In this document: positions 21,706-39,458 of the stretch, piece after piece
How the letters are laid out: each line of letters opens with the position of its first letter
Numbering within the stretch: the stretch's first letter is position 1
Source: Mycolicibacterium gilvum
GTDB lineage: Bacteria > Actinomycetota > Actinomycetes > Mycobacteriales > Mycobacteriaceae
Direction: 5' to 3'
Length of the DNA stretch: 64,000 bases
Assembly (NCBI RefSeq): GCF_900454025.1
Contig: NZ_UGQM01000001.1
Span: forward strand, 1,736,001 to 1,800,000
The notes under the pieces: generated by a model
The model's database searches: none
What the model saw: the letters and a program-made list of their open reading frames with translations, nothing else
What the model was told of the DNA's origin: nothing
Program-made: the position numbers and the translations under genes

Positions 21706-21733
21706 GACGACCTGCTCTTCGCGCCGGCGCTCA

Positions 21734-23089
21734 TCACCTATCCACCCCACCCATCACCGGATCGATCGACGCCACCGCCGTGATCGCATCGGCGACCATG
21801 CCGCCTTCGCACATCGCCGCGACGGCCTGCAGGTTGGTGAACGACGGATCCCGGTAGTGCACCCGGTAGGGCCGGGTTCCGCCGTCGGACACCATGTGTA
21901 CGCCCAATTCGCCGCGCGGGGACTCCACCGCGACGTAGACCTGACCCGGCGGCACCCGGATGCCCTCGGTCACCAGTTTGAAGTGGTGGATCAGCCCCTC
22001 CATCGAGTGGCCCATGATCTTGGCGATGTGCTCCGGGGAGTTGCCCAGCCCGTCGGGCCCGACCTTCAGATCTGCCGGCCACGCGAGCTTCCTGTCGGTG
22101 ATCATCACCGGTTCGCCGGTACTGCGCTCGAGGCGTTCGACGCACTGCTCGACGATCCGGATGGATTCCCGCATCTCCTTGACTCTGATGAGATAGCGGC
22201 CGTAGGAGTCGCACCGGTCATCGGTGATGACGTCGAAATCGTATGTCTGGTAACCGCAGTAGGGCTGCGACTTGCGCAGGTCGTGCGGCAGGCCGGTGGA
22301 ACGCAGGACCGGACCGGTGATCCCCAGCGCCATGCAACCGGTGAGATCGAGATAACCCACGCCCAGGGTGCGGGCCTTCCAGATGTAGTTCTCGTTGAGC
22401 AGGTTCTCCATGTCGCGCAGCCGGGTCGGCAGCAGCGTCAGGAGCTCGCGGATCTGGGGGAGGCCCTCCTCGGGGAGGTCGGCCGCGACACCGCCGGGCC
22501 GGATGTAGGCACTGTTCATGCGCAATCCGGTGATGGTCTCGAACACCGACAGGATCAACTCGCGTTCCCGGAAACCGAGGAACATCGCGGTCATCGCACC
22601 GAGTTCCATTCCGCCGGTGGCGAGTGCCACCAGATGGCTGGAGATTCTGTTGAGCTCCATCATCATCACCCGGATCACCGAGGCGCGTTCCGGGATGTCG
22701 TCGGTGACACCGAGGAGCTTCTCGACACCGAGGCAGTACGCCGTCTCGTTGAAAAACGGTGACAGGTAGTCCATTCGGGTGACGAACGTGACGCCCTGAG
22801 TCCATGTACGGAATTCCAGGTTCTTCTCGATGCCGGTGTGCAGGTAGCCGATTCCGCACCGGGCCTCCACGATGGTTTCGCCCTCGATCTCGAGGATCAG
22901 CCGCAACACCCCGTGGGTCGAGGGATGTTGCGGGCCCATGTTGACGACGATCCGTTCACCGGCGTGCTCGGCGGCGTCCCCCGCACGCGAGGAGGAATTA
23001 GACATTTGCCGTGCCGCCGTGACGACCTGATCCCAGTCCTGGCCGCCGACGACGATGACCCGCTCGGGGCGTTGCGCGGAGGTGGTCAT
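21734..23089 (-). CDS. nuoD: NADH-quinone oxidoreductase subunit D
   Basis: 451 residues of the 49-kDa family related to [NiFe]-hydrogenase large subunits. The quinone-pocket motif [14 protein letters not shown] is intact, as is the C-terminal region [16 protein letters not shown] and the terminal DPVMGGVDR. About 45 extra residues precede the conserved domain, as in other mycobacteria. The ATG at 23089 shares one base with the nuoC stop (TGATG), giving coupled translation. Confidence 0.98.
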
Positions 23090-23769
23090 CAGTTGTACGC
23101 CCTGCGCTGATCGGGCGGCGGGATCTCCGCCCCGTGGTACTCGACCGGGATCCCACCCAACGGATAGTCCTTCCGCTGCGGGTGGCCCACCCAGTCGTCG
23201 GGCATCTCGATACGGGTCAGCGAGGGATGCCCGTCGAAGATGATGCCGAAGAAATCGTAGGTCTCGCGCTCGTGCCAGTCCACCGTCGGATAGACGCCGA
23301 ACAACGACGGGATGTGCGGATCATCGTCGGGGACAGCCACTTCCAGGCGGATGCGACGGTTGTGGGTGATCGACATCAGCGGATACGCGGCGTGCAGCTC
23401 CCGGCCGGAGTCGTCGGGGTAGTGCACGCCGCTGACACCGAGGCACAGTTCGAAGCGCAACGCCGGATCGTCACGCAACGCCTGGGCCACCTCCACGAGG
23501 CGGTCCCGGTGCACCTCAAGGGTGAGCTCGTCGCGGTGGATCACGACGCGTTCGATCGACTCGGTGAACGCATCGTCGCCGACGGCCTCGGCGAGTCTGT
23601 CCACCACCTCGTCGAAATAGCCGCCGTACGGGCGCGGACTGCTGCCGGGAAGGGCGACGGGACGGACCAGCCGACCGTAGCCCGAGGTGTCCCCAGAGCC
23701 CTTGGCGCCGAACATGCCACGCCGTACACCGATGATCTCGGGTGTCTGGTCGCCGGTCGGCTCCGTCAC
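23089..23769 (-). CDS. nuoC: NADH-quinone oxidoreductase subunit C
   Basis: 226 residues of the 30-kDa subunit. The signature [16 protein letters not shown] followed by [21 protein letters not shown] is clear. It packs against NuoD and NuoB in the peripheral arm and carries no cofactor. The GTG at 23769 overlaps the nuoB stop by four bases (GTGA). The first 60 residues are less conserved and probably flexible. Confidence 0.97.
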
Positions 23770-24320
23770 CTCAACAGGCCTTTCAGCTCGATGGTCGGAG
23801 TGAGAGCCATGGCCGCCTGTTCGGCTTCCCTGATGGCCTCTTCGCGGTTCACGCCGAGCGGCATCTGCTGGATCTTGTCGTGCAGTTTGAGGATTGCGTG
23901 CAACAGCATCTCGGGCCGGGGCGGACAACCGGGCAGGTAGATGTCGACGGGTACGACGTGATCGACGCCCTGGACGACGGCGTAGTTGTTGAACATTCCG
24001 CCCGACGAGGCGCAAACCCCCATGGCCAGAACCCACTTCGGCTCGGCCATCTGGTCGTAGATCTGCCGCAGAACCGGCGCCATCTTCTGGCTCACCCGCC
24101 CCGCCACGATCATCAGATCCGCCTGCCGCGGGGTGGCCGAGAAGCGTTCCATGCCGAAGCGCGAGATGTCGAAACGCGGACCGGCGGTGGCCATCATCTC
24201 GATCGCGCAGCACGCCAACCCGAACGTCGCCGGCCACAGCGAGCCCTTCCGGACGTACCCGGCGACCTTCTCGACGGTCGAGAGCAGGATGCCCCCGGGA
24301 AGTTTCTCTTCTAGTCCCAT
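23766..24320 (-). CDS. nuoB: NADH-quinone oxidoreductase subunit B (N2 cluster)
   Basis: 184 residues. It binds the terminal 4Fe-4S cluster N2: the tandem cysteines of [10 protein letters not shown], a third cysteine in [10 protein letters not shown] and the fourth in PGCPPRPE are all present. It reduces quinone together with NuoD. The ATG at 24320 overlaps the nuoA stop by ten bases. Confidence 0.98.
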
Positions 24321-24685
24321 TGCAGTCCTCCCCGGCGCCAGACGTACGCATAGGCCACGAATACGACGACCATGAACAAGAGCATCTCGATCAGCGCGAA
24401 CATCCCGAGGCTGTCGAACGCGACGGCCCAGGGGTAGAGGAAGACGATCTCGATGTCGAAGACGATGAACAGCATCGCGGTCAGGTAGTACCGCATCGGG
24501 AAGCGTTGAGCCGTCGCGGCGACCGCGGGATCCGAGGCGTCCATCGGCTCGATTCCGCACTCGTAGGCTTCGAGCTTCGCGCGGTTGAACCGGCGCGGGC
24601 CGATCAGCAACGCGATCCCGACCGATCCCACCGCGAACACGGCAGCGATCGCACCGAGCACCAGGATTGGCGTGTACAGATTCAT
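24311..24685 (-). CDS. nuoA: NADH-quinone oxidoreductase subunit A (first gene of the nuo operon)
   Basis: 124 residues with three transmembrane helices. The loop YECGIEP between helices 1 and 2, with its conserved Cys-Gly-x-Glu, and [10 protein letters not shown] in helix 2 identify NuoA. It lies at the quinone-access site of the membrane arm. The ATG at 24685 is the first start after a 175-bp non-coding stretch that contains a CRP-like palindrome, and GAGGAG lies about 12 bases upstream. All fourteen subunits follow in the order A to N without gaps larger than 28 bp, so one long transcript is likely. Confidence 0.98.
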
Positions 24686-24715
24686 ACTGCGCAGCAGCTC
24701 CTCGCAGGCTGTCGA

Positions 24716-24731
24716 TGTGAGCTATCACACA
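24716..24731. promoter_or_regulatory. CRP/FNR-like binding site upstream of nuoA
   Basis: TGTGAGCTATCACACA matches the mycobacterial Crp consensus TGTGA-N6-TCACA with one mismatch in the right arm. On the nuoA strand it follows a TANNNT-type hexamer (TAGGCT, 24731-24736) directly, so bound regulator would sit over the start of transcription about 31 bases before the nuoA ATG. This position would suit repression or fine control by cAMP. It is a sequence match only. Confidence 0.5.
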
Positions 24732-24860
24732 GCCTAGCCCTGTTTGGGATGCAAGCCACACATTTTGGTTAGTATCGCTACTGGCGTCGCCCGGCGATGC
24801 CGCGCTGCCCTCAGCGGGCGCGAAGAATCAAGCGCAGCAGTGACTTTCGCCGTACCGGGG

Positions 24861-25271
24861 TCAAGCGGCAGGTCGCAACAACGACACGACGGCATCCCCG
24901 AGGCGTATCGGGTCGATCGGGTGCGGAACCGCCGCCTCGGCACGCGACCATCGCGCCAGCCACGCGTCGTCGGGTCGTCCGGTCAGCACGAGGATCGGCG
25001 GGCAGACGTCGAGTTCATCCTTGAGCTGCTTGGCGATACCCATCCCGCCCACCGGCGTCGCCTCACCGTCGAGGATCGCCAGATCGAATCCGCCCGCATC
25101 CATCTGGCGGACCACCATCGGACCGGTCGCCACCTCGACGTAGTCCAGCTCGGGCAGTTCGGGGTGGATCCTTCTGCCCAGCGCGAGCTTGACCTGCTCG
25201 CGCGTTCTCGGGTTGTCGCTGTAGACGAGGACGCGCAGCACACCACGCGTCTCGGCAGACGGCACGACCAT
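24861..25271 (-). CDS. orphan response-regulator receiver-domain protein (Rv3143-like)
   Basis: 136 residues, a single CheY-like domain without output domain. The phosphoacceptor aspartate is in LAILDGEATP, with an acidic residue after strand 1 (LVYSDN) and the conserved threonine in LVLTGRPDD. The lysine that normally precedes the proline at the end of strand 5 is replaced: the sequence reads VPHPIDP. No histidine kinase gene is adjacent. A receiver gene in this position beside nuoA is also found in M. tuberculosis (Rv3143), so it may report a respiratory or redox signal to an unknown partner. It is 175 bp upstream of nuoA on the same strand, so read-through into nuo is possible. Confidence 0.88.
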   Translation of the reverse strand: MVVPSAETRGVLRVLVYSDNPRTREQVKLALGRRIHPELPELDYVEVATGPMVVRQMDAGGFDLAILDGEATPVGGMGIAKQLKDELDVCPPILVLTGRPDDAWLARWSRAEAAVPHPIDPIRLGDAVVSLLRPAA

Positions 25272-25525
25272 GGGCGCGATGGTAGCCCGTGAATGTCGTT
25301 CCCACCTACGGAATCTGGCGGACGATCCGCGCCTGTGGCCGTCGTCGGCCGCCTCCGGCCGGGCCGGCCCCGGCGCCCGGAGAAGCTTGCTGAGGAACGC
25401 CCTCGATCGGAAGCTGCCTGGCCGGCGGGGGTGCCCGGCGGATTATCGCGCCCGACAAATTTTGCTATTCATCGCGACGGAGAGATCGGTCGGCGCTAGC
25501 ATTCGCGCGTGGGGGACGGAGCCGG

Positions 25526-28123
25526 ATGACGGCCGGTCTGGGGCTGGCGCGCACGCAGGTGGAGTCTGCGATCGTGGCGTCGCGCCTGCGCGCCGTGCTG
25601 GTCGGCGCCGCCGGCGTCGGGAAGACCTCGATGGCCCGCAAGCTGGCCCGTGACTATGCCCGCAAACATCCGCGGCTCACCTCGCACTGGGTGTCGGCGA
25701 CCGCATCGGCCAGGGACATCCCGTTCGCAGCGTTCAGCCACCTCATCGATGTGTCCGGCGGCGAGGAACCGACGACGTTGCTGCGCGCCGCGCGGGAGTC
25801 GCTGAGGTCTGCGCACGGCCTTCTGCTCGTTGTCGACGACGCGCATCACCTCGACACGTTGTCGGCGACGCTGGTGCACCAGCTCGCCGTCACCGACAAC
25901 GCGCACATCATGCTCACCGTCCGCGAGGGCGAACCGGTCCCCGACGCCGTCACCGCGTTGTGGAAGGACTCCATCCTCGCCCGCCACGACATCGCCCCGT
26001 TCGATCGGCGGGAGAGTGGGCTGCTGCTCGAACAGATCCTGGGCGGCACCGTCGAAGATGTCAGCACCGTGCGGATGTTCGAGATCAGCCAGGGCAATCC
26101 GCTGTATCTGCGCCACCTCGTGGACGCAGCGCTGGGAACCGGCTCGCTGCGCCAGGTCGAAGGGGTGTGGCAGCTGCGCGGGGAGATGACGCTGAGCCCG
26201 CAGCTCACCACGCTCATCGACGCGCATCTGACCAACCTGCCCGAGCCGGTGCGGTCGGTCCTGGAGTTCCTCGCCATCGACGATCCACTGTCGGTCGACG
26301 ATCTCGCCGCACTGACGGGTATCGACGCCGTCGACGCGGCGGAGACCTGCGGGGTCGTCACCATCACCGACCGGGCCGGCGCCCTGTACGCCCATCCGTT
26401 CCATCCGATCTACACAGAACGCGTGCGCTCGTCGCTGGGTCTGCTCGCGATGCGCCGGCTGCGCAAACTGCTGGCGGGCCGGATGTCCGTGCGCGCCCCG
26501 GGGAACCTGAGCACACGGCTGCGGATGGCGGCGCTGGCCATGGGGACCGATGAACCGCCGAGCGCCGACGAACTCGTCGGATTGTCCTGGGAGGCCATGA
26601 GGCTCGGCGATCTCGCGCTCGGTGAGCGCCTCGCGCGCGCCGCGCTCGAGCAGGCCGACGGATTGGCCGCGCGACTTCCGCTCGCTCACTCGTTGTCGTG
26701 GCAGGGCCGCGGACGAGACGCCGACGACGTGCTCAACCCGGTGGATCCGGACACCCTGACGCAATGGGATCTGATGGCCTGGACACTGCCCAAGGCGGCC
26801 AACAGGTTCTGGATGCTGTCCGAATCCGAAGAGGCTGTGGAGTACCTGCGGCAGATGCGCGCACGCATCACCGAACGAGGCGCCCTGCACACCATCGACG
26901 CGCTGGCCGCGACGTTCGCGATGAACGCCGGCGACCCTGCGGAAGCGGTGACGGTCGCCAAGGGCATCCTCGCCGCTGACGACGCGCAGGACCTGGCGGT
27001 GGCGTGGGCGTCGGCCGCCGCGACGCTGTCGTCGGCGCGTATGGGCCGCTTCGCCGAGGTCGACGGTCTCGCGCAACGCGGCCTGGACGCGGCGCATCCC
27101 GGACTGCTCCGGTTCACGATAGGCCTCGGGCAGACGCTCGCTCTGATCATGAACGCCGACGTCGCGTCGGCCGAACACCTGGCCCGCCACTACCTCAGTT
27201 TCTCGGAGTTCCAGCAGCCCGGCCGCGCCATCGGTGAGGTGCTGCTGGGGCACACGCTCTTGGCTTCCGGCCGGTTCGGCGACGCGGTGACGCTGTTGCG
27301 GCAGGCGGCGGCGGCACTGACCTACACCGGGTACAGCTGGGGGCCGCTGGCGTTGACGGGGCTCGCCCAGGCGCTCGGGCAGCAGGGGCGCGCCGCCGAC
27401 GCCTCCGCCGTGCTCACACGCGCGGAGGCCAGTCACGGGATGCGCTCGGCGCTCTACGCACCCGACCTGGCGCTCGCCCGGGCATGGACCCTGGCCGCCG
27501 CCCGGGACCTCCGTGGCGCGGTCGCCTCGGCGCGCGACGCGGTGCACGCCGCGGTGCAGTCGGGTCAGGATGCGGTGGCGCTGCGGGCTCTGCAGGACTG
27601 TGCACGGCTGGGCGACACCCACGGGCTGGCGACGGCGGTCCGTCTCAGTGACAGGATCGGTTGTGTCACAGGACCGTTGTGCGTCGCGCATCTGCGTGCG
27701 CTCGCGGCGGGGGACGGGGCTGCGCTCGATGCGGTCTCGGCAGACCTGGAGACCGCGGGTCTGCCGGCAGCCGCCGCGGATGCCGCGGCCCAGGCGACGT
27801 TCGCCCACCAGCGCCGGGGAGATCGCGCGGGTGAGGTCGCGTCGAGGTCACGGGCGAGCCGCCTCTCGCAGGTCTGCGGCGCCCCGGCGACTCCGGCGCT
27901 CGAACAGGTGCTCAACCCGATGCCGTTGACGGGTCGGGAGCGTGAGGTGGCGGTGATGGTATCCCAGGGGTTGACGAACAAGGCCATCGCGCAGCGTCTT
28001 TCGGTGTCCGTCCGCACCGTCGAGGGCCACGTCTACCGGGCCTGTATGAAGATCGGTGTTCCGGATCGGGCGGCGCTCGCGTCGACGGTGGGGGGCATGC
28101 ACGGACGTGAAGGGACGGCGTGA
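25526..28123 (+). CDS. large ATP-binding LuxR-family regulator (LAL/MalT-type), first of two
   Basis: 865 residues. An AAA/STAND-type ATPase has Walker A GAAGVGKTS (residues 27-35) and Walker B LLLVVDDA (99-106). A long alpha-helical TPR-like middle (about 300-790) follows, then a C-terminal LuxR helix-turn-helix (LTGREREVAVMVSQG, NKAIAQRLSVSVRTVEGHVYR). Such proteins oligomerise on ATP and an inducer and activate transcription. The ATG at 25526 has GGACGGAG upstream. The stop abuts the ATG of the hydrolase gene, so regulator and three downstream genes form one transcription unit. The 254-bp region before it holds GC-rich inverted repeats and an AT-rich patch near 25455-25475 that may be its promoter. 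Confidence 0.92.
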   Translation: MTAGLGLARTQVESAIVASRLRAVLVGAAGVGKTSMARKLARDYARKHPRLTSHWVSATASARDIPFAAFSHLIDVSGGEEPTTLLRAARESLRSAHGLLLVVDDAHHLDTLSATLVHQLAVTDNAHIMLTVREGEPVPDAVTALWKDSILARHDIAPFDRRESGLLLEQILGGTVEDVSTVRMFEISQGNPLYLRHLVDAALGTGSLRQVEGVWQLRGEMTLSPQLTTLIDAHLTNLPEPVRSVLEFLAIDDPLSVDDLAALTGIDAVDAAETCGVVTITDRAGALYAHPFHPIYTERVRSSLGLLAMRRLRKLLAGRMSVRAPGNLSTRLRMAALAMGTDEPPSADELVGLSWEAMRLGDLALGERLARAALEQADGLAARLPLAHSLSWQGRGRDADDVLNPVDPDTLTQWDLMAWTLPKAANRFWMLSESEEAVEYLRQMRARITERGALHTIDALAATFAMNAGDPAEAVTVAKGILAADDAQDLAVAWASAAATLSSARMGRFAEVDGLAQRGLDAAHPGLLRFTIGLGQTLALIMNADVASAEHLARHYLSFSEFQQPGRAIGEVLLGHTLLASGRFGDAVTLLRQAAAALTYTGYSWGPLALTGLAQALGQQGRAADASAVLTRAEASHGMRSALYAPDLALARAWTLAAARDLRGAVASARDAVHAAVQSGQDAVALRALQDCARLGDTHGLATAVRLSDRIGCVTGPLCVAHLRALAAGDGAALDAVSADLETAGLPAAAADAAAQATFAHQRRGDRAGEVASRSRASRLSQVCGAPATPALEQVLNPMPLTGREREVAVMVSQGLTNKAIAQRLSVSVRTVEGHVYRACMKIGVPDRAALASTVGGMHGREGTA

Positions 28124-29227
28124 ATGAGCGTGTTCTCCGTGTCGGCGTCGTTGAGGCAGTCCGGTGTCTCGCTGCGCAGCCCCGACGGGGTGACGCTGCC
28201 TGAGGTCGAGACGGTCTGGTTCGAGACCGAAGACCGGATGCGCCTGAACTTCCGGCATCTGCCTCCGGTTCCGGGCACCGAGGACAAAGGGCCCGTGATG
28301 TTCGTCCACGGGTCCGGCACCCGCGCCGATCTGTTCTGTCCGCCCAGCACGATCACACTGCCCGCGCTGTTGTCGGCGGCAGGCTTCGACGTGTGGTTGT
28401 TGAACTGGCGCGGCAGTATCGACGTCGAGCCGACGTCGTACACGTTCGACGACGCGGCGGTCTTCGACTTCCCGGCCGCGGTGTCGGAGATCCTGCAGCG
28501 GACCTGTTCGACGGTGGGCGGGATCAAAGCGGTGGTGCACTGTCAGGGTTCGCACGCCTTCATGATGTCGATCGCATCGGGTCTGCTTCCCGAGATCACC
28601 ACGGTCGTGGCCAATTCGACGGCAATGCACCCGCGGGTGCGGTGGTCGGCCTCGGTGAAACTGCCCTTCGCCCTCAAGACGCTGGGCAAGACGACGGAAT
28701 GGTTCAATCCGCAGCACGGGTTGTATGCGTCGAGCTTCAGTGCGCGCGTGCTCGATCTGCTCGTGCGGCTGTTCCACCACGAGTGCGACAACGCGGTGTG
28801 CAAGCACTCCAGTTTCATCTACGGCGTGGGGTTCCCGACACTGTGGAGTCACCACCATCTCGACGAGGTCACCCACGACTGGATCAAGGGTGAGTTCGCC
28901 CACGTCCCGGTGAGCCTGTTCCGGCAGACGCACCGATGCCTCGCGGCGGGCCGGCTCGTGCCGGTACGCGGATATCCGGGGATCCAGCCCGGTGTGGCGA
29001 TACACGAACCGAAGACCGACGCGAACTTTCTGTTCATGTGCGGATCCGACAACAAGACGTTCCATCCGTCGGGGATGAGGAAGACCTTCGAACATTTCAC
29101 GACGCGCACGCGCGGCACCCAGGAGCATTGGGAGATCACGGGATACGGGCATCTCGACCCGTTCCTGGGCAAGTATGCCGCCGAGGACGTCTTCCCCAGG
29201 GTCATCGCCTTCCTGGAAGGCCAGTGA
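28124..29227 (+). CDS. alpha/beta hydrolase-fold protein with predicted Cys nucleophile
   Basis: 367 residues. The oxyanion region is FVHGSGTRADL (residues 60-70) and the nucleophile elbow reads VHCQG, placing Cys140 where serine hydrolases have Ser; Asp309 (CGSDNKTFHP) and His343 (GYGHLD) complete a plausible Cys-Asp-His triad. This resembles the C-terminal hydrolase part of very large GMC-oxidoreductase fusion proteins, where an HCxGS motif is also common as far as I recall. The ATG directly follows the regulator stop, and the stop overlaps the next ATG (TGATG). There is no signal peptide. It probably acts on the product or substrate of the GMC oxidoreductase encoded nearby; the chemistry is unknown. 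Confidence 0.85.
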   Translation: MSVFSVSASLRQSGVSLRSPDGVTLPEVETVWFETEDRMRLNFRHLPPVPGTEDKGPVMFVHGSGTRADLFCPPSTITLPALLSAAGFDVWLLNWRGSIDVEPTSYTFDDAAVFDFPAAVSEILQRTCSTVGGIKAVVHCQGSHAFMMSIASGLLPEITTVVANSTAMHPRVRWSASVKLPFALKTLGKTTEWFNPQHGLYASSFSARVLDLLVRLFHHECDNAVCKHSSFIYGVGFPTLWSHHHLDEVTHDWIKGEFAHVPVSLFRQTHRCLAAGRLVPVRGYPGIQPGVAIHEPKTDANFLFMCGSDNKTFHPSGMRKTFEHFTTRTRGTQEHWEITGYGHLDPFLGKYAAEDVFPRVIAFLEGQ

Positions 29228-29556
29228 TGCCCAAGGTCTCGTTGGTCTGCCATGTCGGCCTGCTGCTCGTGCTGTCGATCCTGGTTTTCCCCGGCATGTT
29301 CGGCGGTGACGTCCCCCGCGCCGTCCCGCTGGCTGTCGTCGCTCTGGTGCTGGCGGTGGTGTTGGCGGTCACCGAGGTCTTCTCCGGGCTGCGGTGGGTG
29401 GCGCTGGTCGCTCTCGCCGCGGCCGTGGCGGGCCTGATCGCCACCGTGTGCGACGACCCGGTCTCGGGAGCGGCCCTGTGGGGATGGGGCCTGGCCTGGA
29501 TGGCAGTGGTTGTGTGGTTCGCGGTGCTGGCCTCGCGGGCACGGAGTAACCGGTGA
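29227..29556 (+). CDS. small integral membrane protein, unknown function
   Basis: 109 residues with four hydrophobic segments (about 6-25, 32-50, 54-72 and 82-102) separated by very short loops and a short basic C-terminus (SRARSNR). No family is recognised. Its ATG overlaps the hydrolase stop and its stop overlaps the next start as GTGA, so it is translated as part of the same operon. It could anchor the hydrolase/oxidoreductase complex to the membrane or move a hydrophobic substrate; both are guesses from context. Confidence 0.82.
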   Translation: MPKVSLVCHVGLLLVLSILVFPGMFGGDVPRAVPLAVVALVLAVVLAVTEVFSGLRWVALVALAAAVAGLIATVCDDPVSGAALWGWGLAWMAVVVWFAVLASRARSNR

Positions 29557-30176
29557 CGGGCCTGCGGTTTCGGGAGACGATGACGGGCCGGATCGCCCTG
29601 CGGGCGAGGGATCCCGTGGATGGCTACGGACGGGTCGACGGATATGCCGCGGTCATGCACATCACGATCGACATCCCCGACGTCGCGGCGTTCACCGCCG
29701 GCCGGGTGGATGCGGCCCGGTTGCGGGCCGATGTGCTGATCCCTGTGCTGGGCGGGCGATTTCAGACCTCGTCCGGAGAGTTCGTCTGCTTCCGGTCCGG
29801 TGAGGGACCGGACGGGACACCGGTTCAACAGATGATCTATACGGCGACGCTGACCAATGACGATCGGGTATTGGAGATGTCGGCGCGAAAGGTGCTGGAA
29901 CCCAGGGGATGGCGGATCTGGCGGGTCTGGCCGGACACCACCACACTGTTGGTGACGCTGGTCGACGTGACCCCCGATGACGACAAGGAGCGACCGCGGC
30001 ATCTCGCCGGGGTGGTGTACATCACGGTGCGCGGATTCGCGCGTCAGCTGACCACGATGAGGCCGTACGGAAGTCGGCGGTGGTCGGAGAAGCTCGGTGC
30101 CTTGTTCGGCTACCTGAGCTTCTTCGCCGGGCGCCTCATCCGGATCTATCTGAGTCGCCGTATGGCTGCGGAATGA
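29553..30176 (+). CDS. stand-alone homologue of the middle domain of GMC-oxidoreductase/hydrolase fusion proteins
   Basis: 207 residues. The pattern LRFRETMTG at the N-terminus, an internal beta-rich region, WRVWPDTTTLLVTL and a C-terminal RGFARQLTTMR match the lipocalin-like region that lies between GMC oxidoreductase and alpha/beta hydrolase parts (or beside patatin parts) in giant bacterial proteins; this comparison is from memory. The GTG at 29553 overlaps the membrane-protein stop. The 3' end overlaps the convergent GMC gene by 41 bp. With its neighbours it looks like one component of a split multidomain enzyme. Its own activity is unknown; binding of a steroid- or lipid-like ligand would suit the fold. 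Confidence 0.75.
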   Translation: MTGLRFRETMTGRIALRARDPVDGYGRVDGYAAVMHITIDIPDVAAFTAGRVDAARLRADVLIPVLGGRFQTSSGEFVCFRSGEGPDGTPVQQMIYTATLTNDDRVLEMSARKVLEPRGWRIWRVWPDTTTLLVTLVDVTPDDDKERPRHLAGVVYITVRGFARQLTTMRPYGSRRWSEKLGALFGYLSFFAGRLIRIYLSRRMAAE

Positions 30177-31800
30177 ACGGTGCTGGGAGCGAGGGTGTTG
30201 CGAGATCCTCTTTTCTCAATTCGTGCGCTGCTCTGCGGGCGAACGCGGCGATCGTCAGCGACGGGTTGGCGCCGACCGGTCCCGGCATCACCGAGCCGTC
30301 GGTGATCCACAGCCCGGGAACACCCCGCACCCTGCCATAGCTGTCGACGACGCCTTCCTGGGCGGACGTGTCGGCGGGGCAACCGCCGAGCGGATGCACG
30401 GTGATGACCTCGTTGATGAAGTCCCACAGGAAATTACGCAGGAAGCCTGCCCCGAGGTCCTTCGTCAGCGCTTCCATCCGGCGGGCCACATCCTGGAAGT
30501 GTTTGTCGGAGGTGTGTTTCTTCCATGTGCACGTCATCTTGGTGTCGTCGGAGTCCTTGAGGCACAGCTGTCCGTCGGGGATGTCGGCGCCCATTCCGAG
30601 CAGCGGCAGCGGCCACCGGAGACGCCGCAGCCAGGCGGACGCGAATCTCGGAACCGACAGCTTCGCCAGCGCCTCTCTCAGGTCGTCCGGCCCCCAACCC
30701 CACGTGGCGAGATTCGGTAAACCGCCGTCCTGCAACAGAATGCGCCGTTCGCCCTCGTCGTAGGAGCGATAGGTGGTGATGACGGGGCCACCGCTCGGCA
30801 GGAGCTCGTCGTCATCTCCGTCCGGGAGCGCGAACCCGAGCAGATCGCCGTTGCCGCAGAACCGCTTCCCGAGTGCGGCGCAGTCGGACAGGCCGAGCTT
30901 CTTGCTACGCAGCATCAGATACGTGCTGCCCAGAGTGCCGGCGGCGAGAATCACACGTTTGGCCCGGATCACTCCTTCAACCGGCTCACTCTTGTTCCGG
31001 CATTCGGGATGCACGACGTAGGCGACCTCGAAAAGATAGTCGGAATCGTCTGTGCAGGGCGCGATCTCGCGTACCTCGGTACGCACGCAGATCTGCGCGC
31101 CGTGATGTGCCGCCATCGACAGGTAGGTGTGGTCCAGGCTGCTTTTCGCCCCACGGTTGCAGCCGACATCGCACTCGCCGCACATCGTGCAGGTGGTGCG
31201 CTCCACGTCGTCGCCGTGGATGTTGGGGTAGTCCGCGGGCGGCAGGGGAGCGCCTTTCGCCGGACCGTCAGCTCCGTCGAAGCGCACCGCCAACGGGGCG
31301 AGCACAGAGCCGGCATCAAGGAATTTAGTGGTCTTCTTCGAATGTTCTTCGTGCAGGCTCTGCGGTATCTCCTGGACCTGGAGGACCTCTCTGACAGCCC
31401 GGTAATGATCGCGCAGGTCCCGGTGGGTGAACGACCAGGTCTCGGTTTTCCCGTTGCCGTCGGGGACGGGCTGGGTGAACCATTGCGCGGGCTTCTCCAG
31501 CATCACGTTGGCGTAGATCAACGATCCGCCGCCGAGTCCGCTCGCGGTGACGGCGTCGATGCCGTCGAACGACCACAGGTCGAACATTCCGTGCTTCCCG
31601 AACCCCGGTGCCCAGATGGAGTCGTCGATCTCCATCACCCGACGAGGGAAGGATCCTGGCGGATAGGCTTTGCCACGTTCGAACAGGCAGACACCTCTCC
31701 TCCTTGTGGCGAGTTCGGCCGCCATGACGGACCCGCCGAACCCGCTCCCGATGATCAGGTAGTTGACTTCGTCGGCGCACGGTCCGTTTTGCAGCTCCAT
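30136..31800 (-). CDS. GMC-family oxidoreductase with four-cysteine ferredoxin-like motif
   Basis: 554 residues. The FAD motif is YLIIGSGFGGSVMAAELA (residues 14-31) with ERGK at the second-strand acidic end; the GMC C-terminus has HPLGGC (469-474) and NPSLT. Between them is C204-x2-C207-x2-C210-x3-C214 in the segment CTMCGECDVGCNRG, spaced like iron-sulfur ligands. Cholesterol oxidases and related large GMC proteins are the nearest relatives. I chose the ATG at 31800 because the FAD strand follows at once. It is divergent from the second regulator gene and convergent with the 29553 gene. A membrane lipid, sterol or long-chain alcohol is the likely substrate class. Confidence 0.9.
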   Translation of the reverse strand: MELQNGPCADEVNYLIIGSGFGGSVMAAELATRRRGVCLFERGKAYPPGSFPRRVMEIDDSIWAPGFGKHGMFDLWSFDGIDAVTASGLGGGSLIYANVMLEKPAQWFTQPVPDGNGKTETWSFTHRDLRDHYRAVREVLQVQEIPQSLHEEHSKKTTKFLDAGSVLAPLAVRFDGADGPAKGAPLPPADYPNIHGDDVERTTCTMCGECDVGCNRGAKSSLDHTYLSMAAHHGAQICVRTEVREIAPCTDDSDYLFEVAYVVHPECRNKSEPVEGVIRAKRVILAAGTLGSTYLMLRSKKLGLSDCAALGKRFCGNGDLLGFALPDGDDDELLPSGGPVITTYRSYDEGERRILLQDGGLPNLATWGWGPDDLREALAKLSVPRFASAWLRRLRWPLPLLGMGADIPDGQLCLKDSDDTKMTCTWKKHTSDKHFQDVARRMEALTKDLGAGFLRNFLWDFINEVITVHPLGGCPADTSAQEGVVDSYGRVRGVPGLWITDGSVMPGPVGANPSLTIAAFARRAAHELRKEDLATPSLPAPFIPQPYGDSDRSG

Positions 31801-31981
31801 GGCGAAGACGATAAGTCTCCGGTACCGGCTGTATGTGCAGATCAGCAAGGATTCCGGAAATCTCGCCGACGTGGTGGCCGACCGAAAACAGGTAGTGCGC
31901 TACGCATGACCGGGTAGCGCCCGCCTCCCTAGTGTTCGGCATGTCAGCCCCCGCACGTCGTACACCACCGAGGAGACGCCG
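31801..31981. promoter_or_regulatory. divergent control region between the GMC oxidoreductase and the second LuxR regulator
   Basis: This 181-bp gap contains the palindrome GTAGTGCGCTAC (31892-31903), followed by another GTAGCGC at 31914-31920, and a TANNNT -10-like hexamer TAGTGT at 31930-31935 pointing toward the regulator gene. The repeats are candidate sites for one of the two LuxR-type proteins. No experiment or strong consensus supports the exact positions. Confidence 0.4.
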
Positions 31982-34915
31982 ATGCCTGTCACAGTGCTCG
32001 GCGCGCAGCCGAAGAAGTTCGCTGACCGTCATGCCGACCCGGTGACCGCGCGGGCGCTGCACGTCCCGGTGCAACAGGTCTGGGGGTACCGCAGTGATCG
32101 ATCCGCAGTGTCATCCGATAGGCCACCCGCGGTCCACCGACCGATGAGCGAGGAACGGGGCGACGAATACGTCGTCAGCTTCGTCGAGTCGATGACCCGG
32201 CGTCCGGCGGCCCTGGTGATCCAGGGGGAGCCCGGGATCGGTAAGACGACTCGGTGGATGGATGTCTGCGAGGAGGCGCGACGCGCGGGCGTGCGGGTGC
32301 TCTCGACGCGGTCCGGCGTCGGCGAATCGGCGCTCGACTTCGTCGGTGTCGATGACCTGCTCGCCGACGTCGAACCCGAGGTGTTCGACGCGCTGCCGAT
32401 CGCGCAGCGCACGGCCCTGCGACAGGTTCTGGTCCGCTCCGGCGCCGACGGTACCGAGATCGACAGACGCGCTGCAATCGGCGCGTTCCGGGCTCTGGTC
32501 GCGGAACTGGCCACCCGCACACCGGTGTTGATCGGCGTCGACGACGTGCAATGGCTCGACGAGGCGACCCGCGACGCACTGGTCTACACGATGCGCCGGG
32601 TGCGTGGCCCGGTCGCGGTAGTGGTCACCGAGCGTGCCGTGACCGGACGGGGAAGCGCGGTGTCCTGGCTCGACCTCGGAGAGGCCGGATCCGTCACACG
32701 CCTGGTGGTCCGACCGATGTCGGTGGCTGAACTGCACCGCCTCGTGGCCGGCCGGACGGGGCGGTCCCTCTCGCGGCCTGCGATGGCGCGGCTCGCGGAG
32801 ATGTCGGGTGGAAATCCCTACTACGCATTGGAACTCGCGCAGGCCATGGACTCCGCCGGCTGGGTATGGAGCGCGGGACTGCCGTCGAGCCTGGTCGACG
32901 CCACCGGTCTGCACAGGGAGCGGCTCGACGCGGACGTCAACGAGGTCCTGCTCGCCGCCGCATCCGTCGTCGGGCCCACCGTCGACCTGCTCGCCGCCGT
33001 GCTGCACCGTCCGGTCGAGCAGATCGTCGGATCGCTGGAGAAGGCCGAAAATCTCGGCATCGCCTCGATCGAGGCCGGCCGCGTGGGCTTCTCACATCCA
33101 CTGCTGCCCCACATCATCTACAGCCAGGCACGGCCGGGTGAGCGCAGACGGATCCACCGCGCCGTCGCCTCGGTCGAACCGTCGCCGCAACGCCAGGCAC
33201 GGCACCTGGCGTTGGCGGCGACGACCGGCGACCCCGAGATCCTGCGCGCCCTCGATTCGGCCGCCGAGACGGCACGCGCCGACGCTGCGCCGGCGACCGC
33301 GGCGGAACTCACGGAGTTCGCGATCGGTCTCGGCGGCGACACACCTGTGCGACGTCTGCACGCTGCCCGCGACCACCTGCTGGCCGGCGACATCGACCGC
33401 TCGCTGGCGCTCCTGGAACCCACCGCGCGGGGTCTGCCCGACGGGCTGATGCGGGCCCACGCACGCGTTCTGGTCGGTGGTGCGCTCGCGGTGCGCGGGA
33501 CTTTCGGTCGAGCCGTCGACGAACTGCGGGTCGCACTCGCCGATGCGGCCGAGGATCCGGGCCTGACGGTACAGATACAGCTGGCTCTGGCGATGACGCT
33601 GTCGGCCGCCGGAGACCACGACGGTGCCGATGACCATGTACGACAGGCACGGATGCACGCCGAAGGCATGGCCGACCACGTTCTGACCAGTCAGGCGCTG
33701 GCCGCGCAGGTGCTGGTCCGGACGGCGAACGGTGAAGTGGCGGACGAGGTTTCACTGCGGCGGGCGGCCGACCTGGAGCAACGCGTTCACCACACCTCTG
33801 GACTCCCGGCTGGCGTCCACACCGCCGCGCCGTTCAGCGCACGGGTGGTCAAAGCGCTGGTCTCGGTGTGGACCGGGCGACTCACCGAAGGCCGGGCACA
33901 ACTCGCCGAGGCGCAGGCCCGGTACGCCGCCCGCGGATCCGATGTCGATGTGCTCTGGATCCAGTTCCACTCGGCGATGACAGACATCGGGCTGGGACGA
34001 CACGGCGACGCCGCACGTCTCGCCGAGGACATGCTGCTGGGCGCCGAGCAGCTCGGAGGTGCCGCGGCGAGGGCGCTGGCCGCCGAACCGCGCGCGCTGC
34101 TCGCGACGCTGGAGGGTCGGGAGTCCGATGCCAGGGCCGAGGTGGATCAGGTGCTCGAGCAGGTCTCAGACGACGTGCCGCCCAGCAACGGACTCCGAAC
34201 GGTCCTGGGCTTCCTGGAGTTGTCCCTCGGGCGTCACGCAGCCGCGGTCGACGTGTTGTCCCCGTTGCTGGCGCGCAGCCGGACCGGCGGGAGCATCGAG
34301 ATCGCGACGCTGCGTTTCCTGCCCGACCTTCTGGAAGCGGCGTTCTCGGTGGGGCGCGTCGATGAGTTCGCGGCGTGGGTCGATGCCCTGGAGGACGCCG
34401 GTACCCGGCTGAACCGTCCATGGATAGTCGCGGTCGCGGCACGCTGCCGCACCATGCAGTTGGCCGCACGCGGAGAACTCGCCGCAGCACAGGTCACCGC
34501 GCTGCGCGCACTCGACGCGCACCGCGGACTGCCGATGCCGTTCGAACTCGCCCGTACTCAGCTCATCGTCGGGCAACTGCAGCGACGGCTACGCCAGAAA
34601 CGGCTGGCCCGAACGACATTGACGGAGGCACTGACCATTTTCGAACAACTCGGGACCCCACTGTGGGCGGCTCGCGCCCGCACCGAACTCGCCCGCACCG
34701 CGGAGAGCCCGCAGCAGCATCTGCTGACCGCCACCGAACAGCGCGTCGCCGAGCTGGTGGCGTCGGGACTCACCAACAAGGACGTCGCGGCCGCGCTCTA
34801 CATCAGCCCGAAGACGGTGGAGCACAACCTGGGCCGGGTCTACCGCAAGCTCGGAATCCGCAACCGCACCGAACTGGGCCGCCAGATGGACAGTCTGCGC
34901 GACGGGCCGAACTGA
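31982..34915 (+). CDS. large ATP-binding LuxR-family regulator (LAL/MalT-type), second of two
   Basis: 977 residues. The ATPase domain has Walker A GEPGIGKTT (residues 82-90), Walker B VLIGVDDVQWLDEAT near 180 and a GGNPYYALEL sensor-like segment. A TPR-like helical middle spans roughly 400-890, and the C-terminal LuxR helix-turn-helix is LTATEQRVAELVASG with NKDVAAALYISPKTVEHNLGRVYRKLG. It shares architecture but little sequence with the first regulator. The ATG at 31982 has GAGGAG seven bases upstream; a later in-frame ATG at 32144 would still keep the Walker A site. It faces the GMC gene divergently, which makes that gene its most obvious target. Confidence 0.92.
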   Translation: MPVTVLGAQPKKFADRHADPVTARALHVPVQQVWGYRSDRSAVSSDRPPAVHRPMSEERGDEYVVSFVESMTRRPAALVIQGEPGIGKTTRWMDVCEEARRAGVRVLSTRSGVGESALDFVGVDDLLADVEPEVFDALPIAQRTALRQVLVRSGADGTEIDRRAAIGAFRALVAELATRTPVLIGVDDVQWLDEATRDALVYTMRRVRGPVAVVVTERAVTGRGSAVSWLDLGEAGSVTRLVVRPMSVAELHRLVAGRTGRSLSRPAMARLAEMSGGNPYYALELAQAMDSAGWVWSAGLPSSLVDATGLHRERLDADVNEVLLAAASVVGPTVDLLAAVLHRPVEQIVGSLEKAENLGIASIEAGRVGFSHPLLPHIIYSQARPGERRRIHRAVASVEPSPQRQARHLALAATTGDPEILRALDSAAETARADAAPATAAELTEFAIGLGGDTPVRRLHAARDHLLAGDIDRSLALLEPTARGLPDGLMRAHARVLVGGALAVRGTFGRAVDELRVALADAAEDPGLTVQIQLALAMTLSAAGDHDGADDHVRQARMHAEGMADHVLTSQALAAQVLVRTANGEVADEVSLRRAADLEQRVHHTSGLPAGVHTAAPFSARVVKALVSVWTGRLTEGRAQLAEAQARYAARGSDVDVLWIQFHSAMTDIGLGRHGDAARLAEDMLLGAEQLGGAAARALAAEPRALLATLEGRESDARAEVDQVLEQVSDDVPPSNGLRTVLGFLELSLGRHAAAVDVLSPLLARSRTGGSIEIATLRFLPDLLEAAFSVGRVDEFAAWVDALEDAGTRLNRPWIVAVAARCRTMQLAARGELAAAQVTALRALDAHRGLPMPFELARTQLIVGQLQRRLRQKRLARTTLTEALTIFEQLGTPLWAARARTELARTAESPQQHLLTATEQRVAELVASGLTNKDVAAALYISPKTVEHNLGRVYRKLGIRNRTELGRQMDSLRDGPN

Positions 34916-34916
34916 C

Positions 34917-35204
34917 ATGCCCACCTTTCTCGCAGAATGGCAGCGCTCCACGTTCAGCGACCCCACAATCTCCAAATTCGTCACCCTGCTCGAATCCTGC
35001 GCCGCGCAGATCGCGGCACCGGAATCACCGGTCCGGCTGATCATGGTGCTCGCCGTGGCCGCCGACCTCGGTGTCTGCGCGGTGTTCGAAGCCGACAGCG
35101 CTCAGACCGTGCTGCGCGTGTGCAGGAACGCCGGCGCGATGCCGCAACGGCTGACACCCGACGTCGAAGCGAGGATCCTCGCGTCCGAGTCCGCGTCGTC
35201 CTGA
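34917..35204 (+). CDS. small DUF4242-like protein
   Basis: 95 residues. The central segment (LAVAADLGVCAVFEADSAQTVLRVCRNAG) resembles the ferredoxin-like DUF4242 family, small proteins sometimes described as nickel-binding. It begins one base after the regulator stop, so it is probably translated from the same messenger. No catalytic residues or signals are visible. Association with a LuxR-ATPase gene is seen here only by position, and a role as ligand-sensing partner would be speculation. Confidence 0.75.
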   Translation: MPTFLAEWQRSTFSDPTISKFVTLLESCAAQIAAPESPVRLIMVLAVAADLGVCAVFEADSAQTVLRVCRNAGAMPQRLTPDVEARILASESASS

Positions 35205-35588
35205 TCAGGACCCGCCCACGAGAAGCGGCTGCATCTCGGCGGGATCGAAGTATTCGTCGATACGGGTGATCAAACCGTCGTCACCGACGACGATCACGAT
35301 GCACACCCGCATCGCGATCGCCTCCCCGCTACGGGCGGTGGCGTGCAGGATGTGCTGCTGCACAAAGCCGCCGTCGAAGAACCGGCGGTCGGTGATCTCA
35401 TAGCGCCGGTCCACGGTCGCCCGGACGAACCAGTCGATGACCTTCACCGCCCGCCGGTGGTCGCAGTCCCGGTCGTCGCCGCTATGCCACACCGCGACCC
35501 CGGGGCTGAACATCTGTGCGACCGTGTCGATGTCGCTGCGTGTGATGGCGGCGAACAACCGGTCGGCGACGACTGCGGTGTCAGGCAT
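35205..35588 (-). CDS. nuclear transport factor 2 (SnoaL-like) family protein
   Basis: 127 residues forming a cone-shaped alpha+beta barrel by pattern: a helical N-terminus (VADRLFAAITRSDIDTVAQMF), AVWHSGDDRDCD, a middle with VVGDDGLITRIDEYFDPAEM. Members are ligand-binding or small isomerase/hydrolase enzymes such as polyketide cyclases and limonene-epoxide hydrolases. It converges with the DUF4242-like gene with no gap and diverges from the methyltransferase gene. Function cannot be narrowed. Confidence 0.88.
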   Translation of the reverse strand: MPDTAVVADRLFAAITRSDIDTVAQMFSPGVAVWHSGDDRDCDHRRAVKVIDWFVRATVDRRYEITDRRFFDGGFVQQHILHATARSGEAIAMRVCIVIVVGDDGLITRIDEYFDPAEMQPLLVGGS

Positions 35589-35628
35589 GTATTGACCTCA
35601 ACTCAGGTTTGGGTTGAACACTGTGGAC

Positions 35629-36267
35629 ATGGACCAGACACCCACACTCTCCCGTTTCGACGACTTCTACAAGGACGAGGACCAGACCCCGCCGTGGGTC
35701 ATCGGCGAACCACAGCCGGCCGTCGTCGACATCGAGCGCGCCGGCCTCATCACCGGCCGCGTACTCGACGTCGGCTGCGGGACCGGTGAGCACACGATCC
35801 TGCTCACCGCCGCGGGCTACGACGTACTCGGGGTGGACGGTGCGCCGAGCGCCGTTGAGCAGGCGCGGCACAACGCGAAGACGCGCGGGGTCGATGCCCG
35901 CTTCGACGTGGCCGACGCTCTCGACCTCGGGGACGAGCCGGCCTACGACACGATCATCGACAGCGCCCTGTTCCACATCTTCGACGACGCCGACCGCGAG
36001 AAGTATGTTCGGAGCCTGGGCCGCGCCACCGCCCCGGGATCCGTCGTCCACCTGCTTGCGCTGTCCGACACCGGCCGCGGCTTCGGGCCCGAGGTCAGCG
36101 AGGAGACCATCCGCGCCGCATTCGCCGATCCCGGATGGGACATCGAGGCGTTGACCACGACGTACTACCGCGGGCTGATCACCGCTCCGCACGCAGACGC
36201 GATGGGCCTCGACGTCGGCACCGTGGTCGACGAACCGGCCTGGCTGGCACGCATCCGTCGACTCTGA
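35629..36267 (+). CDS. class I SAM-dependent methyltransferase
   Basis: 212 residues. Motif I is VLDVGCGTGEHTILL with GVDGAPSAV as the acidic ribose-binding end, then a DALDL segment and IIDSALFHIFDD as motifs II/III. The family transfers methyl from S-adenosylmethionine to small molecules; the acceptor cannot be deduced. I placed the start at the ATG 35629; a TTG at 35614 and GTG at 35623 are in frame upstream. The gene is single, divergent from the NTF2-like gene and convergent with the DUF6285-like gene, the stops being one base apart. Confidence 0.9.
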   Translation: MDQTPTLSRFDDFYKDEDQTPPWVIGEPQPAVVDIERAGLITGRVLDVGCGTGEHTILLTAAGYDVLGVDGAPSAVEQARHNAKTRGVDARFDVADALDLGDEPAYDTIIDSALFHIFDDADREKYVRSLGRATAPGSVVHLLALSDTGRGFGPEVSEETIRAAFADPGWDIEALTTTYYRGLITAPHADAMGLDVGTVVDEPAWLARIRRL

Positions 36268-36268
36268 C

Positions 36269-36604
36269 TCAGCCGTCGGCATACCCGGGGTGATCGATAC
36301 CCAGGCGGTGACGGACCAGCGTTCGCAGCGCGGTCATCACCTCCTCCGGGCGGTCATCGAGTCGACCCTCCCGGATGGACTGTGCCAATGCCGACTCGTC
36401 GTCAGCGCCCAGCCCCGAGATCGCGTCCCGGACAGCGTCGTCGGTGTCGTCGAGCAGTCCACGTTCCACGATCCGCAGCACATTGGCGGCCACCCTGGCG
36501 TGAAAGCCGACCTGGCCGCCGACGCCGCGCACATCATGGTCGAGAAAGTCGGCGACGGCGGCCACCAGCTCGGCGGTGGTGGGGCGTCCTGTCAGCGCTG
36601 TCAT
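36269..36604 (-). CDS. DUF6285-like protein, last gene of the catabolic operon
   Basis: 111 residues, helical, with a repeated pattern of RxVExGLLDDTDDAV and EVMTALRTLVRHRLGIDHPGY. Proteins of this kind occur next to phosphotransferases of the ACAD10-like group and acyl-CoA dehydrogenases in actinobacteria. The ATG at 36604 overlaps the phosphotransferase stop (ATGA). Function unknown; it may be an accessory subunit of the neighbouring kinase. Confidence 0.85.
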   Translation of the reverse strand: MTALTGRPTTAELVAAVADFLDHDVRGVGGQVGFHARVAANVLRIVERGLLDDTDDAVRDAISGLGADDESALAQSIREGRLDDRPEEVMTALRTLVRHRLGIDHPGYADG

Positions 36605-37572
36605 TGGGGGCCCTTCCCGGACAGTAGGTCCAACAGATCCCATTCGGTCTCGCTCACCCGTCGCCCGATGGCGGCGAGCTCGACCGAGCGTGCCTCCCCG
36701 GACAGGTGCCGTTCGGCCTGATGCCGACAGATGACGCCCCAGCGGAGCGTCGCGACGGTCAACCACCAACGGAACGTGCTGCGGTCCAACACGATCTGCG
36801 CTGCCGACTCGTAGGCCTGCAGGAACGTCTCGACACTGCCGAGCCCCCCGGCGCCCAGCGATTCGGCGGCGCCGAACCGCCACGCCCGGATGCAGAACCA
36901 GGCGAGATCCTCATAGATCTCGCCGATGTGGGTCAACTCCCAATCCAGTACGGCGGCAAGACCCGAGTCATCGACGATCAGGTTCCCCATCCGGAAATCG
37001 CCGTGTACGAGGCGCATCGGCGACGGATCGGGTCGTTCGTCGGCCAGCCGGCGGAACGTCCATTCGAATGTCGCGGTGGTGTCACCGATCTCATCGAGAC
37101 GCGTACGCCACCCGGCCAGTTCGTCGGGCGCGGCCAACCCCACGCCGTCGGGGTCGGCGCGATGGATGGCGGCCAGCGCCTTCGCGCACTGCGTGAGCAG
37201 CCGCGCGCGCCCGGTGTCATCGAGCATGCGGAAGATCTTGCGCACGATGGTCTCGCCCGCAATCGCATCACAGATCAGATACGGCTCGCCCACGGCATCA
37301 GGCGAGTTGTCGGCGGCCAGGATGTGGGGCACCGGAGCGCCGGCAGCAGCCGCGCGCTGCTGCACCTTGGCTTCGAGTTCCATGCTCGCGTGGATGTCGT
37401 CACGGGCCCCGGTGCGCAGGATCAGATGGCGAGACCGCCCGTCCGACCGCGAGGTGAACGCCCACGTGGTCCGGCTCGCGCCACCGGTCAGACGCTGCAG
37501 ATCCTCGACGGTCGTGTCGCCGAGAACAGGACGCAAGACGTCCTCCAGCGCCCGGGCGAGGTCATCGCTCAC
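36601..37572 (-). CDS. phosphotransferase family protein (ACAD10-like kinase domain)
   Basis: 323 residues. The kinase-like fold shows the catalytic loop LVHGDFRMGNLIV and VLDWELTHIGEIYEDLAWF, the metal site. Unlike the homologue at 6673, the catalytic HGD is intact. In eukaryotic ACAD10/11 a kinase and a dehydrogenase domain are fused and act on 4-hydroxyacyl-CoAs; here kinase and dehydrogenase genes are adjacent and overlapping (GTGA at 37569-37572), which suggests the same two-step chemistry. This inference is from family and gene order. Confidence 0.92.
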   Translation of the reverse strand: MSDDLARALEDVLRPVLGDTTVEDLQRLTGGASRTTWAFTSRSDGRSRHLILRTGARDDIHASMELEAKVQQRAAAAGAPVPHILAADNSPDAVGEPYLICDAIAGETIVRKIFRMLDDTGRARLLTQCAKALAAIHRADPDGVGLAAPDELAGWRTRLDEIGDTTATFEWTFRRLADERPDPSPMRLVHGDFRMGNLIVDDSGLAAVLDWELTHIGEIYEDLAWFCIRAWRFGAAESLGAGGLGSVETFLQAYESAAQIVLDRSTFRWWLTVATLRWGVICRHQAERHLSGEARSVELAAIGRRVSETEWDLLDLLSGKGPQ

Positions 37573-38807: not shown

Positions 38808-38831
38808 GTGTTCTCCTTTGAACGTCTTCGA

Positions 38832-39452
38832 TCAGTACCCGTACAGCGTTTTCTTCCAGATGCGTGACAGTGTCGCAATGGCGTCCTGGTCGGTCATCTG
38901 CACCCCCAACCCGGACGCTCCGACGAACACGGTGGTGAAGTTCTCGAACAACAGCGCGATCGCGGCTGCGGTGTGCTCCGGGTTGAGTTCTGTGCCGTAG
39001 CCCTGTTCCTGCGCGCGCCGCACCGACGCCGCTACGATGTCCATCCCGAATCGGCGGAACTCGTTCTGCACCAGGGTGAATCGAGGCTGCGTGGCGGCCA
39101 GCTGCGCCACCGCGATCATGATGCCGATGTTCTGCTTGAACATCGTCCAGTATCCGGTGACGACCGCGGTGAAGAACGCGTCGTCGTCCGGGGACTCGGG
39201 GAGCGGCACCCGCAGGCCGGACGGGGCGACGACGTCGTGTAGGAACGATTCGGCGAGCGCCGCGAGCAGATCTTCCTTGTCGTTGAAATAACGGTAGAAC
39301 GCCGCCGGTGACTTTCCCGCCGCCGAGGTGATGTCGGCCAGGGTGGTGCCGTGGAAACCACGTTCGGCGAACAGCTTTCGCGCCGCCTGCGCCAGAGCGT
39401 CCCGGGTCTGCCGACCTTTGGCGCTCAGTGTCTCCGACGGTCCCGGCGGCAC
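38832..39452 (-). CDS. TetR/AcrR family regulator inside the catabolic operon
   Basis: 206 residues. The helix-turn-helix region is RDALAQAARKLFAERGFHGTTLADITSAAGKSPAAFYRYF, followed by a long helical ligand domain. The start is the GTG at 39452, seven bases from the stop of the lyase gene. Being inside the operon that starts at 43842 it would be autoregulated if it binds the operon promoter. The ligand is presumably an acyl-CoA intermediate of the pathway. Confidence 0.9.
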   Translation of the reverse strand: MPPGPSETLSAKGRQTRDALAQAARKLFAERGFHGTTLADITSAAGKSPAAFYRYFNDKEDLLAALAESFLHDVVAPSGLRVPLPESPDDDAFFTAVVTGYWTMFKQNIGIMIAVAQLAATQPRFTLVQNEFRRFGMDIVAASVRRAQEQGYGTELNPEHTAAAIALLFENFTTVFVGASGLGVQMTDQDAIATLSRIWKKTLYGY

Positions 39453-39458
39453 GATCGG

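Follow-up and report, generated by a model that had tools for sequence, protein, structure and literature searches.

The window (the whole stretch of DNA analysed, 64,000 nucleotides) comes from a Mycobacterium genome of 6.43 Mb. It contains genes for a GMC-fold flavoprotein (GMC), a small protein predicted to form a barrel (MID; 97% identical to a Mycolicibacterium gilvum protein) and an acid-lipase-fold protein (ABH), together with two very large regulators (LAL1 and LAL2). We found that LAL1, ABH, MID and GMC form a recurrent four-gene module which, judged from profile matches, is the split form of a larger GMC-MID-ABH fusion protein. The genes are ordered LAL1–ABH–MEM–MID on the + strand, with GMC convergent on the - strand and LAL2 divergent from it on the + strand. 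The core features are:

25526..28123, + strand: LAL1, an 865-aa STAND ATPase/LuxR regulator, AbsR2-like (Pfam GerE 5.4e-14, AAA_22 8.1e-10)
28124..29227, + strand: ABH, a 367-aa acid-lipase-fold protein with Cys at the nucleophile position (Pfam Abhydrolase_1)
28541..28543, + strand: codon of ABH Cys140, at the nucleophile position in HCxGS (alignment)
28784..28876, + strand: ABH residues 221-251, with Cys221, Cys226, His243 and His251, a putative metal site (alignment)
29553..30176, + strand: MID, a 207-aa predicted barrel protein corresponding to the middle domain of the fusions (profile matches, AlphaFold2)
30136..31848, - strand: GMC, a GMC-fold flavoprotein (Pfam GMC_oxred_C 1.8e-16, GMC_oxred_N 2.7e-9)
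31159..31191, - strand: GMC residues 220-230, Cys-x2-Cys-x2-Cys-x3-Cys (alignment)
31849..31981, no strand: the divergent region between GMC and LAL2, a presumed promoter region (gene layout only)

LAL1 through MID are coupled; that is, their stop and start codons touch or overlap. ABH starts (28124) immediately after the LAL1 stop, ABH overlaps the small gene MEM by 1 base (TGATG, 29227), and MEM overlaps MID by 4 bases (GTGA, 29553-29556). The convergent genes MID (+) and GMC (-) share 41 bases (30136-30176), and GMC probably starts at the ATG at 31800 rather than at the TTG at 31848. The reading-frame coordinates agree with an earlier note on this DNA, which had described overlapping starts and stops and a convergent and divergent layout.

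We searched for MID with a profile in 345 genomes of the class and 396 of the genus, counting the window's own genome in both. MID was found in only 21 of the class genomes and 18 of the genus genomes, so the module is patchily distributed. Surroundings were compared for 17 other genus loci and 20 class loci (numbered L below); L032 and L033, which contain runs of N, were excluded from later work. GMC and ABH adjoin MID or are fused with it in all 17 other Mycobacterium loci, and to this extent the gene set is conserved in related species, as had been predicted. The unit LAL1, ABH, MID and GMC recurs in 15 of the 17, at several chromosomal sites. The two loci without LAL1 are a 6.3-kb contig that starts inside ABH (L061) and a full fusion (L065). 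The LAL1 relatives beside the trio scored 817-1428 bits, except for one copy truncated at a contig end (452). The nearest own-genome paralogs, at 432 bits (this one has a stop) and 312 bits, scored below the complete module-linked copies. Outside the genus, GMC was fused with MID or no more than 1.2 kb away in 19 of the 20 class loci, and ABH was fused or nearby in 14.

An all-against-all comparison, in which positions 20001-40000 of the window were used and the matches to the window were listed in full, showed that six carriers (L053-L057, L059) have flanks in common with the window. Other carriers (L058, L060, L062-L064, L066-L069) have in common with this 20-kb stretch no more than LAL1, ABH and GMC (by BLAST) and MID (by BLAST or profile), with few exceptions: MEM is common to L058 and L064 and a relative of a 95-aa protein to L068. 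Separately, the own genome has a second LAL1-like gene (G000:C1:4512539-4514449; L113, L115), which is ~50% identical and has one TAG within the matched stretch. No second MID or second full ABH was found in the own genome.

The earlier note had proposed that parts fused elsewhere are separate genes here, with the 207-residue protein as the middle domain, and the MID profile bears this out. It matches GMC-carrying frames of 788-972 aa in class genomes (best E 2.1e-24), and complete frames of this size joining GMC and MID are present at 10 of the 20 class loci. It also matches a 1,174-aa GMC-MID-ABH fusion of another Mycobacterium (L065, E 1.1e-19). The LxFxExM pattern claimed for the middle domain lies at MID residues 4-10 (LRFRETM), and in alignment A5 (30 MID sequences) conservation reaches 90% or more at F6, E8, M10 and G12. 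The AlphaFold2 model of MID (mean pLDDT 89.7) is a predicted beta-barrel, in agreement with the description "lipocalin-like".

Using the MID-ABH part of L065 as query, with 8,000 candidates scored, we found at least 1,334 proteins; 112 of the 120 best listed are longer than 1,090 aa. The fusions are ~1,135 aa and come from several phyla; databases often call them "cholesterol oxidase" or "alpha/beta fold hydrolase". Named sources among the matches listed are Actinomycetota, Nitrospira and Acidobacteria, and plasmid records at ≥80% coverage add Azospirillum, Rhizobium, Leptospira, Bernardetia, Persicobacter and Variovorax. In the open-licence literature we found neither a described function of these fusions nor a description of this gene and domain combination. 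The fusion enzyme is large and widespread, and it appears to be uncharacterised. The conserved gene set, its fusion counterpart and the constant LAL1 neighbour are established.

The remaining genes of the locus are:

29227..29556, + strand: MEM, 109 aa with three hydrophobic stretches, optional (hydropathy)
31982..34915, + strand: LAL2, a 977-aa STAND ATPase/LuxR regulator, accessory (Pfam AAA_16 8.8e-14, GerE 3e-14)
34917..35204, + strand: a 95-aa protein, accessory (no Pfam match)
35205-35588: a small NTF2/SnoaL-like protein (by-eye reading, family not assigned), in 3 of the 17 other genus loci, all syntenic

LAL2, MEM and the small flanking genes are accessory. LAL2 is present in 6 of the 17 loci (at least 726 bits), MEM in 4, the 95-aa protein in 7 and the NTF2-like protein in 3. 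All six LAL2 carriers are syntenic with the window; the right-hand flank is as in the window in 6 and the left in 5, the contig of the sixth ending there. A relative of the 95-aa protein adjoins LAL1 in L068, a locus without LAL2. The small membrane protein is therefore not a constant part, and the pairing of the two regulators is not supported as a fixed feature. The claim that the regulators together exceed 5.5 kb stands (5,532 bp), and Pfam identified in both the arrangement of a LAL protein, with an N-terminal STAND/AAA ATPase and a C-terminal LuxR (GerE) helix-turn-helix. On the left, the module is flanked by a Rv3143-family response regulator and nuo genes, and on the right by genes for a methyltransferase, an acyl-CoA dehydrogenase and a CoA-transferase.

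We compared the cysteines of GMC among 38 GMC rows and 112 of 120 fused rows. GMC rows below 100 bits or 350 residues and fused rows below 1,090 aa were dropped; among the 38 are the second GMCs of L065 and L072, as well as the GMC portion of the L065 fusion. C220, C226 and C230 are present in 38/38 and 112/112 rows, and C223 in 29/38 and 111/112. Cys-x5-Cys-x3-Cys is the spacing of the iron-sulfur (Fe-S) ligands of BcGDH-type GMC dehydrogenases, as given in the excerpted text of PMC6719666. GMC has this BcGDH/FDH-type ligand set by spacing, not by segment alignment to BcGDH. A multihaem cytochrome c partner was sought at the locus only, and none of the eight proteins there has a CxxCH haem motif. 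Nor does any of the eight match a simple Tat pattern within its first 40 residues.

GMC scored 187 bits against the curated class I cholesterol oxidase model NF058674, below its cut-off of 850. The catalytic His and Asn are kept: H485 falls on the HPLGG motif and N528 on the NPxxTI motif of Streptomyces cholesterol oxidase, whose catalytic residues are His447 and Asn485. The region of the isomerisation base Glu361 is unaligned, between two aligned pieces. The own genome also has a second GMC (C1:1355480-1357075; L101:5481-7076), cholesterol-oxidase-like and of the ChoD type, that contains CIECGSCMTGC, the same Fe-S-type motif, and scores 581 bits against the cholesterol oxidase model (cut-off 850).

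For ABH we aligned 280 rows, in which L089 occurs twice and there are many close relatives; 120 + 120 of the rows are the best of 1,334 and 658 matches. Cys140 is Cys in all 280, and Asn310 and His343 are each present in 278. Cys221, Cys226, His243 and His251 are all present in 275 rows and all absent in 5, with no partial set. The PDB entries matched by the ABH profile include gastric and lysosomal acid lipase as well as PHA synthase, and the fused model agrees with the acid-lipase relationship for the lipase part. ABH thus has the acid-lipase fold, and it does not have the Ser-Asp-His triad. That this is an oxidase plus an ordinary hydrolase is doubtful in view of two features absent from the earlier note: the Fe-S-type Cys motif of GMC, and the replacement of Ser by Cys and of Asp by Asn in ABH.

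Parts of the module occur in other settings. At seven loci (L116-L122, family f20) ABH is preceded by a protein whose C-terminal part resembles MID (38-52 bits). These proteins have a thioester-reductase-type domain (NAD_binding_4) in 7/7 and a carrier domain in 6/7, and a polyketide synthase lies upstream in both of the two loci examined. In an ABH tree the split type groups with the thioester-reductase type on a single branch (33 rows, 100/100) separate from the fused type, with a long-branch warning. A Rhodococcus plasmid locus encodes a thioester reductase protein, ABH, a crotonyl-CoA carboxylase/reductase and two glycosyltransferases. An Ensifer plasmid encodes a 1,908-aa protein (L099:8902-14625) made of GMC, ABH and a PhoD-like phosphatase domain, and in L070:6814-9891 a patatin-like phospholipase domain is followed by MID in one frame, beside GMC. 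Such settings suggest long-chain or lipid substrates. Separately, an Azospirillum fusion gene comes after a gene annotated as metallophosphoesterase.

We infer that the barrel would couple a flavin dehydrogenase of the Fe-S type to an acid-lipase-fold enzyme that depends on Cys, and that the two would act on a hydrophobic substrate. The reading that we prefer, tentatively and with a little less than even confidence, is a LAL1-controlled lipid-tailoring couple of a dehydrogenase and an acyl-enzyme, in the split form of the GMC-MID-ABH fusion. GMC, MID and ABH would form one complex. GMC would use flavin adenine dinucleotide (FAD) to oxidise a hydroxyl of a hydrophobic substrate (isoprenoid/sterol-like or long-chain) and would hand the electrons to a carrier by way of an Fe-S cluster, instead of forming hydrogen peroxide. 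The MID barrel would keep the hydrophobic intermediate between the active sites. ABH, with its putative Cys-His-Asn triad and Cys2His2 site, would form an acyl-cysteine intermediate for acyl transfer or for ester or thioester processing. LAL1 would turn on the operon once its ATPase/TPR part senses the substrate or product, and in loci that have MEM, this protein may anchor the complex at the membrane. The membrane-bound, signal-cleaving complex suggested earlier is not supported.

Several observations weigh against this lipid-tailoring couple. The profile of GMC is closest to cholesterol oxidases (E 9.6e-61, compared to 1.3e-29 for glucose dehydrogenase and 2.7e-18 for fructose dehydrogenase). 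C223 is lost in 9 of the 38 GMC rows, so a 4Fe-4S cluster cannot be general. A Cys nucleophile also fits plain hydrolysis, as in dienelactone hydrolase. The structure matches of the MID barrel are middling (best Z 9.6) and fall in several unrelated families. In L060, L062 and L063 the GMC partner is far more distant (151-184 bits). Outside the genus, ABH is not beside MID in 6 of 20 loci and GMC is absent in 1 of 20.

It is possible, although rather unlikely, that the locus is a catabolic couple in which ABH cleaves a lipid ester (steryl, wax or other) by hydrolysis, the alcohol so freed is oxidised by GMC, and LAL1 senses the nutrient, much as MalT senses maltotriose and AlkS alkanes. Judged by sequence, the closest solved relatives fit this notion (cholesterol oxidases for GMC, gastric and lysosomal acid lipase/cholesteryl ester hydrolase for ABH), as do the fused model of the lipase part and the acyl-CoA dehydrogenase and CoA-transferase in the right-hand flank of the window. 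However, carriers at other sites are without these flanking catabolic genes, and Cys-Asn-His in place of the acid-lipase Ser-Asp-His in nearly all rows is odd for a simple ester hydrolase. In addition, the MID-like parts and ABH found behind thioester reductase and polyketide synthase have a biosynthetic setting.

That setting, seen in 7/7 loci for thioester reductase-MID with ABH and in 2/2 for the polyketide synthase, also speaks for a role in making or tailoring a single specialised lipid or polyketide, the LALs being pathway-specific activators of a small secondary-metabolite locus. The Rhodococcus plasmid locus and a SARP regulator in Pseudonocardia point the same way. We nevertheless consider this unlikely: no synthase is among the selected flanking open reading frames of the Mycobacterium loci examined, and the fusion is too widespread for one product.

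There is also a small chance that GMC, MID and ABH are an oxidase-free acylation machine. A flavin/Fe-S dehydrogenase (in other actinobacteria, a thioester reductase) would make a lipid aldehyde or ketone, the barrel would pass it on, and ABH, with Cys, His, Asn and a metal site, would capture the product as a thiohemiacetal or thioester and transfer it. If true, the fusions now called "cholesterol oxidase" would represent a new class of enzymes that couple lipids, and STAND sensors would often be associated with them.

An AAA_16 protein is a neighbour in 7 to 8 of 29 loci outside the genus, compared to 2.3 expected with 17-62 AAA_16 proteins per genome, a moderate excess. A guanylate-cyclase-AAA_16 protein adjoins L065, L123, Leptospira L095 and Ensifer L099, a LuxR-AAA_16 protein adjoins L079, L081, L082 and L085, and a SARP-NB-ARC protein lies beside the parts in a Pseudonocardia plasmid. 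Separately, L065:3541-11916 (Mycobacterium) and L095:5471-17895 (a Leptospira borgpetersenii plasmid) have in common the order fusion, second GMC, guanylate-cyclase-AAA_16; the second GMCs are 48% identical and the guanylate-cyclase-AAA_16 match is 165 bits. A stress or defence role, in which sensing would fall to STAND ATPases or nucleotide cyclases and the enzyme trio would be an effector directed at lipids, is very improbable, given that the loci are non-independent (L081, L082 and L085 are near copies), that AAA_16 proteins are so common, that LAL proteins are ordinary transcription regulators, and that a Cap15 match ties with unrelated barrels.

If the residue patterns mean what they suggest, the label "cholesterol oxidase" is wrong twice for the fused family. 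The family would be an electron-transferring dehydrogenase, and its "hydrolase" half would be a Cys enzyme with a metal site. Because the split mycobacterial form consists of small proteins with a dedicated regulator, the parts can be tested singly. The question seems to reach beyond this locus, since the cholesterol-oxidase-like GMC of the own genome has the same Cys motif. The separated pieces of the fusion are passed on together with a giant regulator of their own, and this points to a machine for modifying lipids behind the "cholesterol oxidase" label.

The window can be compared to several known systems. Class I (GMC) cholesterol oxidases have the FAD site and the catalytic His/Asn positions of the window GMC; unlike it, the solved ones that we compared are without the cysteines in the aligned stretch. 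The large subunits of fructose dehydrogenase and FAD-glucose dehydrogenase, both with a 3Fe-4S cluster, are like the window GMC in the GMC fold and the Cys-x5-Cys-x3-Cys spacing. Compared to gastric and lysosomal acid lipases, ABH has Cys for Ser, Asn for Asp and an extra Cys2His2 set. PHA synthase (PhaC) has a Cys nucleophile in the elbow, as ABH does, and local profile similarity to it with only ~100 residues aligned; its triad is Cys-Asp-His, whereas ABH has Asn at the Asp position. The GMC-MID-ABH fusions are like the window in the Cys motif, the Cys nucleophile and the Cys2His2 set (112/112 fused rows, those below 1,090 aa again being dropped). They are one protein, in the order GMC, MID, ABH, whereas the window has three separate genes and LAL1.
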